A stretch of DNA of 64,000 nucleotides from contig NC_018025.1 of NCBI RefSeq assembly GCF_000266945.1, positions 4,840,001 to 4,904,000 on the forward strand, given 5' to 3'. The DNA is from Desulfomonile tiedjei DSM 6799 (GTDB taxonomy: Bacteria; Desulfobacterota; Desulfomonilia; Desulfomonilales; Desulfomonilaceae). Each line of letters starts with the position of its first letter. Positions within the stretch are counted from its first letter, which is position 1. Below the pieces are notes generated by a model that was not told the origin of the DNA, did no database searches, and saw nothing but the letters and a program-made list of their open reading frames with translations. Positions 548 to 29,640 of this stretch are shown piece by piece. The position numbers and the translations under genes were made by a program.

Positions 548-663
548 TATAGCAGTTGCCAAAATTAGTGACCGATTGAAGATTAGGAATATTGGTGGGT
601 GCCGTGCCTCCGTGCCGGCACATATTCAATATGATCGATGATATCGATAGAATGGACCGGCAG
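548..663. repeat. MITE family A, copy interrupted by IS110
   Basis: Left part of a roughly 190-bp nonautonomous repeat. It begins TATAGCAGTTGCCAAAA and contains the GC-rich palindromes GTGCCGGCAC and ACCGGCAG..CGCCGGT. The sequence is cut after ACCGGCAG at 663 and resumes with GGACGCCGGT at 1941, giving exactly the sequence seen intact at 50742-50929. The homology continues only to about 1962. Other copies in the window: 28911-29092, 41654-41940, 50742-50929 and more degenerate ones near 7490, 13530, 23690, 29517 and 63297. Confidence 0.85.
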
Positions 664-678
664 CGACTGTGTTTCTTG

Positions 679-1629
679 TCAAGGAAAAACTACCTGGAAA
701 GGCTGTTTTTTCTTGAGCATTGCGTTTAGGATGACGATCATCTTACGCATACAAGCCGTGATGGCAACCTTGAAAGGTTTTCCAGCCTCAATGAGGCGTT
801 GATAGAAAGGCTTGATGACTACATTGGACGTTATGGCCGCGACTGCAGCCATATACAGGGTTGAGCGTACATCCGCCCGTCCACCCGAAATCTCGCGCTT
901 GCCTTTCTTCTTTCCGCTGTCTTTGTTGAGAGGCGCCAGGCCGACGAGGCGACTGATTTCATGACGGCTGACATGTCCCAGTTCGGGCAGTTTTGCCATG
1001 AGCACTCTGGCAGTTATGGGGCCCACGCCTTTGAAGGTTCGGAGGAGTTCCTCTGTTTCACGCCACAGAGGCGATTTCCTGATAAGGTCATCGACATCTT
1101 TATCGATGTCTTCGATTTCCTTATCTAGGGCTGCTATGACCGTTTGAATGCTGCGCTGCACGCGATTGGAACGGGCTCGATGGAGGCGATTCTTTTCTGA
1201 TGCACGCAAATCAACAAGCTGCTTTCGACGTGTTACGAGTTCCTTGATTTGCTTTTCGTCCTCCGTTGGCAGCGGCTTCGGTATGGGCCTAACCGTTTGG
1301 GCAAAGCGTGCCAGCACATAAGCATCGATGGCGTCTGTCTTGGCGAGTTTTCCGATGCCTTTAGCAAAGTCCCGCACCTGACCAGGGTTGACGACAGCGA
1401 TCGGCAGGCCGGCGAGACCTAACTGGGCCGCAACGGTTATCTCGTAGCCTCCGGTGGCTTCCATCACGATTACCATGGGGGTCTCTGCGTGGAGGATCTC
1501 AATCAGCGAGTCGATGCCTTGAGTGTCATTCTTGACGGTGGTGTGCATGCCTTTTGGCAGCACATGCGCATCCAACTGATCTTTAGAGATATCTATGCCA
1601 ACAAAAACTTCTTCATGCATGTGTAACAT
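679..1629 (-). CDS. IS110-family DEDD recombinase (transposase)
   Basis: A 316-residue protein with the two IS110 domains. The N-terminal RuvC-like DEDD domain shows FVGIDISKD near residue 9, VMEATGGYE near 55 and KTDAIDAYVLA near 97, which carry the acidic residues. The C-terminal Transposase_20 domain shows FKGVGPITA and SGGRADVRSTLYMAA, the latter containing the expected catalytic serine. The enzyme performs RNA-guided recombination of element and target DNA together with a bridge RNA. The frame is intact and of normal length, so the element may still be active. Confidence 0.96.
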   Translation of the reverse strand: MLHMHEEVFVGIDISKDQLDAHVLPKGMHTTVKNDTQGIDSLIEILHAETPMVIVMEATGGYEITVAAQLGLAGLPIAVVNPGQVRDFAKGIGKLAKTDAIDAYVLARFAQTVRPIPKPLPTEDEKQIKELVTRRKQLVDLRASEKNRLHRARSNRVQRSIQTVIAALDKEIEDIDKDVDDLIRKSPLWRETEELLRTFKGVGPITARVLMAKLPELGHVSRHEISRLVGLAPLNKDSGKKKGKREISGGRADVRSTLYMAAVAAITSNVVIKPFYQRLIEAGKPFKVAITACMRKMIVILNAMLKKKQPFQVVFP

Positions 1630-1840
1630 CCCACCCTTGTGGATACGGACTTCTCAACGAGTCCAGGCGACTGTTCGGGCTTTTTACACGAAGGCCTCCG
1701 GTGATCCAGCTGCCGGGCAGTCTCAGAGGACCAAGGGACGAACGATCTACCGGTGCCTCTGCCCGACTCCTGCAGAGAGTCTGACAGACGTGCATCCCCC
1801 CTCTATCAGGACTCTTATATCTTGGCAACCAAGAGTCCTA
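1630..1840 (-). ncRNA. Predicted IS110 bridge RNA
   Basis: Noncoding left end upstream of the transposase, read on the minus strand. It would begin with a 9-bp stem-loop (1808-1816 with 1831-1839). Next comes an internal loop enclosed by CCGGTGATC (1698-1706) pairing with 1744-1753. This loop holds 1734-1740, identical to the left target plus core (AGGGACG), and 1710-1716, identical to the right target (CTGCCGG). A second loop with stem GGACT/AGTCC (1647-1651/1660-1664) holds CGACTGT (1668-1674), identical to the element end at 664-670, and CTTGT (1636-1640), identical to the other end plus core. The order (target guides, then donor guides) matches the known bridge RNA plan. RNA ends are inferred. 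Confidence 0.8.
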
Positions 1841-2042
1841 TTTTTTGAAGTACCTCGTATCATTGATCCAGTATCAGCCCCTCCCCTCAGCTCGGTACCG
1901 GTTCCAGAGATTCAGTACTTCATGGACAGAAACATACAAGGGACGCCGGTCCCTACCAATATTTGGGTGCCACGGACCTGCCCTGTAGGTCCGTGTTACC
2001 TCCTCAATGAGAAATATCTTGACTGCAAGTCCGTATCAGTCG

Positions 2043-29516: not shown

Positions 29517-29640
29517 TTCCTCGAAATTGGTAGCCACCGGCCTCCGTGTCGGTGGACAATATATAACAAAATCAATTAGTTTTGCCCGGCAGGGACGCCG
29601 GACGCTACCAATACTTTTCTTTTACAGTTGCCGGTTTACC
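29517..29640. repeat. Degenerate MITE A copy
   Basis: TCGAAATTGGTAGCCACCGG, then CCCGGCAGGGACGCCGG and CTACCAATA; the same plan as other family A copies but with the first hairpin altered. Confidence 0.6.

Follow-up and report, generated by a model that had tools for sequence, protein, structure and literature searches.

An IS110-group element inserted in REP-like repeats of Desulfomonile tiedjei, with a predicted IS621-type bridge RNA

The element and its insertion sites

Our study describes an insertion sequence of the IS110 family in a 64,000-nucleotide stretch of the Desulfomonile tiedjei DSM 6799 genome (NC_018025.1, positions 4,840,001 to 4,904,000), hereafter the window; coordinates are positions in the window, and the features of the element lie on its minus strand (Table 1). 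The noncoding left end runs for 309 bp up to the first ATG of the transposase open reading frame (ORF), and the right end for 15 bp after its stop codon, which is the layout of the IS110 group. The transposase matches the Pfam families PF01548 (DEDD N-terminal) and PF02371 (Transposase_20 C-terminal) and scores 240.5 bits against NCBIfam NF033542, "IS110 family RNA-guided transposase", above the cut-off of that model. The solved transposases of IS621 (8wt6, E 1.5e-38) and ISCro4 (9t56, E 1.2e-42) align over nearly the full length of the ORF, and all the catalytic residues named for IS621 (D, E, D, D, S) are conserved in the alignment. A classification in the IS1111 group was rejected because the RNA region lies upstream of the gene and the target matches follow the IS110 order.

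The element boundaries were set by comparing the 14 copies of the element in the genome with 176 occurrences of the intact, uninterrupted 12-mer CGTCCCTGCCGG, whose reversed pattern occurs once. All 14 copies are inserted exactly in CGTCC-CT-GCCGG and in one orientation, with differing outer flanks; the core is a single CT dinucleotide, and the comparison of filled and empty sites reveals no target duplication beyond it. A first-pass annotation, made from the letters of the window alone, had placed the insertion site by means of an uninterrupted repeat copy, and had suggested comparing the sites of related copies with the target loop of an RNA that it predicted in the left end. The 14 exactly matching sites and the 176 empty ones, four of which lie in the window (at 29586, 41821, 50851, and 63367), bear out both points. 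The sites examined (L021-L050) belong to a REP-like (repetitive extragenic palindromic) repeat with the hairpin CCGGC-GTCCCT-GCCGG, the loop and stem of which make up the target; some 40-50 bases beyond it, most of these sites have another hairpin, which has a different loop and contains GGCACGGAGGC. At the window locus, the REP-like target sits between convergent genes.

The transposase frame is long and open in 13 of the 14 copies, two of which are altered near the 3' end, and is broken into two frames in the other one (L014 and L015, which are the same place). The left end is present exactly 14 times in the genome, so that no solo left ends without a transposase exist there; thirteen copies share the same left-end sequence, and the remaining one lacks a single base. 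The element has probably been active recently. A search for it in plasmids gave weak partial matches only, mostly to IS110 transposase genes.

Two other mobile components of this genome were observed. A second IS110-type element (L016-L020), with five copies of about 1.63 kb and an open frame of 443 codons, has flanks without a recognisable common target, as judged by reading its ends and flanks, and right ends that differ between copies, unlike those of the window element. In addition, a 151-aa ORF for a Y1-type (RAYT-like) transposase lies near genome position 934,300-934,750 (L050:2189-2644, minus strand), with three target REP copies around it (933602, 933972, and 934810); it may be the source of the target REP family. 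Six Y1_Tnp matches above the cut-off are present in the genome.

Table 1. Positions of the element, its transposase, and the predicted RNA and promoter features in the window.
Feature	Position	Strand	Remarks
IS110-family element between cores	664..1938	-	1275 bp, 1277 bp with one CT core; left end 1938, right end 664
CT core, left junction CGTCC-CT-TGTATG	1939..1940	-	copy comparison and guide scan
CT core, right junction ACAGTCG-CT-GCCGG	662..663	-	copy comparison and guide scan
DEDD transposase/recombinase ORF	679..1629	-	316 aa from first ATG
Predicted bridge RNA body	1621..1839	-	about 220 nt, 5' stem-loop to end of donor-loop stem; constrained fold and covariation
5' stem-loop, 9 bp, AGGACTCTT/AAGAGTCCT	1808..1839	-	
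Target-binding loop	1698..1754	-	stem ACCGGT-A-GAT/ATC-ACCGG, bulged A at 1748
Left target guide UUCGUCCCU	1734..1742	-	seven 3' bases (1734-1740) match CGTCC+CT
Right target guide CCGGCAG	1710..1716	-	full 7 bp with CT+GCCGG
Target-loop handshake bases CU	1708..1709	-	C pairs with donor position 7 (G)
Donor-binding loop	1621..1689	-	outer stem GUGUAA (1684-1689)/UUACAC (1621-1626)
Left donor guide ACAGUCGC	1667..1674	-	8/8 with right end and core C
Donor-loop hairpin GGACU...AGUCC	1646..1665	-	between the two donor guides
Right donor guide AUCCACAAG	1636..1644	-	ACAAG and AU pair with CTTGTAT, CC unpaired
Donor-loop handshake bases GG	1634..1635	-	pair with target positions 7 and 6 (C, C)
Predicted -10 half TATGTT	1931..1936	-	17-bp spacer once ends join
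Predicted -35 half TTGACA	677..682	-	overlaps transposase stop codon

Guides and fold of the predicted bridge RNA

Four guides had been read in the left end by the first-pass annotation (1734-1740, CGTCCCT; 1710-1716, CCGGCAG; 1668-1674, ACAGTCG; and 1636-1640, ACAAG, which pairs with CTTGT). All of them were verified on the minus strand, and two proved longer than it had proposed: the left donor guide (LDG) has 8 nt, reaching 1667 and including the core C, and the right donor guide (RDG) reaches 1644 with two unpaired bases. We conducted a guide scan in which every pair of CT/CT positions around the gene was scored as possible ends under the pairing rules of the IS621 structure paper, with lengths of 9 nt for the left target guide (LTG), 7 nt for the right target guide (RTG), 8 nt for the LDG, and 9 nt with two skipped bases for the RDG. 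This blind scan ranked the true ends first among all CT/CT pairs, with a score of 29 out of 31, compared with a mean best score of 25.1 in 60 shuffles (standard deviation 0.65, maximum 27.4). With the ends fixed, all three long guides were found together in none of 20,000 left-end shuffles, and two of them in eight.

The same annotation had described a 9-bp stem closing the target loop, a GGACT/AGTCC stem in the donor loop, and a 9-bp stem-loop preceding both loops. All of them are present, the first as CCGGT-A-GATC with GATC-ACCGG. The target-binding loop encloses the LTG, a hairpin GGTC/GACT, and the RTG, while the donor-binding loop contains an inner stem formed by CCC (1677-1679) and GGG (1630-1632). 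Unconstrained folding was discarded as a source of evidence, as it was uninformative, with competing helices winning; when the guides are held unpaired, the RNA of the window and those of most relatives form the two-loop structure. No Rfam match was obtained in the window at gathering thresholds. The ends of the RNA given in Table 1 are putative. Its 3' stem reaches 1621 and crosses the first ATG of the ORF (1629); since the UUACAC strand of the donor stem covers the first codons and the next in-frame ATG follows directly after it, translation of the transposase may really start at 1620. The left end also has a foldable leader of about 85 nt (1840-1925), which separates the 5' stem-loop from the expected start of the transcript.

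The first-pass annotation had also suggested testing the fold for covariation with other IS110 left ends. One scan of a genome collection provided 80 related loci from many phyla, with transposases about 40-51% identical to that of the window; the fold is kept, with compensatory changes, among elements at this level of identity. To assign the ends of these relatives, only the donor side was used (the left end CTTGTA, the LDG, and the RDG), blind to the target; the donor ends and guides are conserved in 43 loci, which were used to compare target guides with flanks. The RTG matched the flank in at least 6 of 7 positions in 40 of the 43 loci (mean 14 and maximum 21 in 500 flank permutations), with a mean match of 6.71 against 5.53 when permuted (maximum 5.86). 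The LTG matched in at least 7 of 9 positions in 16 of the 43 (permuted mean 4, maximum 10), with a mean match of 6.44 against 5.66 (maximum 6.00). Among the RTGs, GGGTTAG faces CTAACCC in L053, CTCCCAG faces CTGGGAG in L062, CCCTGAG faces CTCAGGG in L110, and AAGCTAG faces CTAGCTT in L052; in L131, a relative from the taxonomic family of the host, the RTG GGGTGAG likewise faces CTCACCC. The handshake bases of the target loop are complementary in 24 of 25 distinct RNAs, a result that no permutation equalled, and the first base of the donor-loop handshake is complementary in 24 of 26.

Two MAFFT alignments (A1 and A2) were rejected for counting base pairs, as variable linkers put the target stem out of register in its 3' arm, and an anchor-based script was used instead. 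In 25 distinct RNAs, standard pairs amounted to 148 of 150 in the 6-bp part of the target stem (87 when the 3' arms were exchanged at random among sequences, maximum 109), 92 of 100 in the donor hairpin (69, maximum 81), 90 of 100 in the target hairpin (69, maximum 80), and 75 of 75 in the donor stem (72, maximum 74), counts that are supportive and should not be read as probabilities, given that the target stem and hairpin were placed in the register that maximised pairing and that the sequences are related. Compensatory changes occur in all four helices tested, with several pair types at many positions, and the target stem with its bulged A forms its full 9 pairs in most sequences. The multi-copy relatives of the Planctomycetes TBK1r (L086-L091, L095, L097, and L099) gave no guide-scan score that stood out clearly from the shuffled null under a CT core and the IS621 pairing rules; their core or the spacing of their guides may be different.

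Proposed mechanism and alternative explanations

We are highly confident that bridge-RNA-guided recombination is how this insertion sequence of the IS110 group moves. As far as the DNA can tell, it has every tested feature of an IS621-type bridge RNA system, and the IS621-type plan claimed by the first-pass annotation is supported by the guides, the conserved two-loop fold, and the IS110 transposase match. Neither of the two outcomes that the annotation had named as refutations, a lack of a conserved fold in homologous elements and related copies at sites unlike the predicted loop, was observed. It is important to note that several observations weigh against this interpretation. The two misses in the scan score are LTG positions 1 and 2, which mismatch the target and leave 7 of 9 bases paired, and the LTG-flank match of the relatives is weaker than their RTG-flank match. 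The second core base is unmatched in the LDG, as is also the case in IS621. The unconstrained minimum-free-energy fold lacks the two-loop structure and is as stable as shuffled sequences (z = -0.7 and -0.9). Finally, the left end exceeds those of the relatives, with 198 nt between the LTG and the core compared with about 33-125 nt in relatives whose left end is CTTGTA, and it carries an extra leader.

In the mechanism that we propose, the insertion sequence would excise and its ends would join, bringing together the TTGACA of the right end and the TATGTT of the left end into a promoter for the left-end RNA. This predicted promoter agrees with the consensus at 10 of 12 positions, a value that 1% of shuffles equal, and most relatives have the same geometry, with the -35 half ending 13 bases before the core; junction promoters have been reported for IS621 and ISEc21. 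The donor loop would then read the joined ends of the circle through the LDG ACAGUCGC and the RDG AUCCACAAG, and the target loop would read CGTCC-CT-GCCGG, with the LTG bases CGUCCCU on the bottom strand and the RTG CCGGCAG on the top strand. Bound to this RNA, the DEDD/serine recombinase would swap strands at the common CT core and insert the circle with no target duplication beyond the core. Because the target REP is abundant and, at the window locus, lies between convergent genes, the element could multiply with little harm.

Three other explanations were considered. The first is that the left end encodes a short, target-only seekRNA of about 70-80 nt instead of a bridge RNA with two loops, and that its matches to the donor are incidental. 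We regard this as very improbable, given that no part of the RNA is better conserved than the donor loop, that most relatives also have the 8/8 LDG and the discontiguous RDG, and that the stems carry compensatory changes; cellular processing could still yield a short form. The second is that recognition of the REP hairpin, by its DNA structure or sequence, needs only the recombinase protein, the left-end matches being coincidental or relics. The target is indeed a palindrome, and a preference for REP palindromes is also known from several transposases of other families (PMC1525189). However, none of the 14 insertions is found in the arm of the companion hairpin, although this arm is also palindromic and its 12-mer CGGCACGGAGGC has 465 exact matches in the genome. 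Moreover, about 188 one-mismatch versions of the target exist in the genome (about 28 of them expected from the reversed-pattern control), and if these and the perfect sites were used alike, the chance of finding all 14 copies in perfect sites would be about 1e-4, according to a simple post hoc estimate. Together with the RNA loops that track the flanks in the relatives, these observations make recognition by the protein alone extremely unlikely. It is equally hard to believe that the copies arose through homologous recombination or segmental duplication between REPs and not through 14 targeted insertions, since, even though REPs are repeated and the copies are nearly identical, the outer flanks differ and come from different REP subfamilies, and every junction is precise to the nucleotide, each side having one CT core.

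Within the bridge-RNA interpretation, the element might be a specialist for a single arm of one REP family, with its 7-bp RTG and 7-bp LTG demanding the perfect 12 bp and the companion arm being ignored; we put this forward tentatively, as a proposal that could well go either way. If true, this specialisation would be a natural counterpart of the extended right guide engineered into IS621 as an improvement. In any case, the genome offers an internal test of the bridge-RNA rule, in which a single RNA can be set against 14 independent insertions, 176 perfect sites left unused, and about 188 sites with one mismatch. Our study adds a divergent, multi-copy IS110 recombinase with a natural 7-bp RTG, useful for finding more specific programmable recombinases, and the element and its relatives give comparative support to the discontiguous RDG and the handshake bases proposed from IS621.

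Comparison with known systems

The bridge RNAs of IS110 elements were described in 2024 (PMC11208160, PMC11208158), with a parallel account of the IS110 guide RNA as seekRNA (PMC11187229), and knowledge of IS110 elements that target REPs goes back to at least 2006 (PMC1525189). In a literature search of partial coverage, with ISfinder outside its scope, no paper on this particular element was found. ISPpu9, ISPpu10, ISPa11, and ISRm19 resemble it in having an IS110-type transposase and every copy in a REP, but differ from it in host and REP sequence; ISPpu10 and ISPa11 are among six bridge RNAs that have been drawn, three each from the IS110 and IS1111 groups (PMC11208160). The seekRNA system of ISEc21, also of IS110 type, has in common with it an upstream noncoding RNA that matches both target strands in the IS110 order, whereas its target is linear and non-palindromic and its RNA was described as short and target-only. 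ISCro4 (9t56) has the closest solved transposase structure by sequence, a likeness that covers the protein alone.

The element also resembles IS621 of E. coli, an IS110-group element whose 177-nt bridge RNA has the same order of 5' stem-loop, target loop, and donor loop and the same CT core (PMC11208160, PMC11208158). Both have an 8-nt LDG that ends on the first core base and a 9-nt RDG that pairs discontiguously with 7 bases, and the right-donor bases are identical to those given in the structure paper as C8 T9 T10 G11 T12 A13 T14. The bulged A in the target stem, the handshake bases, the predicted circle-junction promoter, and the REP targets are likewise shared (PMC11208160, PMC11208158). 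Unlike IS621, where the natural RTG has 4 bp and one of 7 bp was engineered, the element has a natural RTG of 7 bp; longer RTGs have been reported in some orthologues. It also differs in the LTG, which pairs at 7 of 9 positions, in the longer left end of about 310 nt with its extra leader, and in the REP sequence. With a natural 7-bp RTG and a longer left end, the differences from IS621 are of degree, and the element is an unusually clean natural example of the known IS110 bridge-RNA family.
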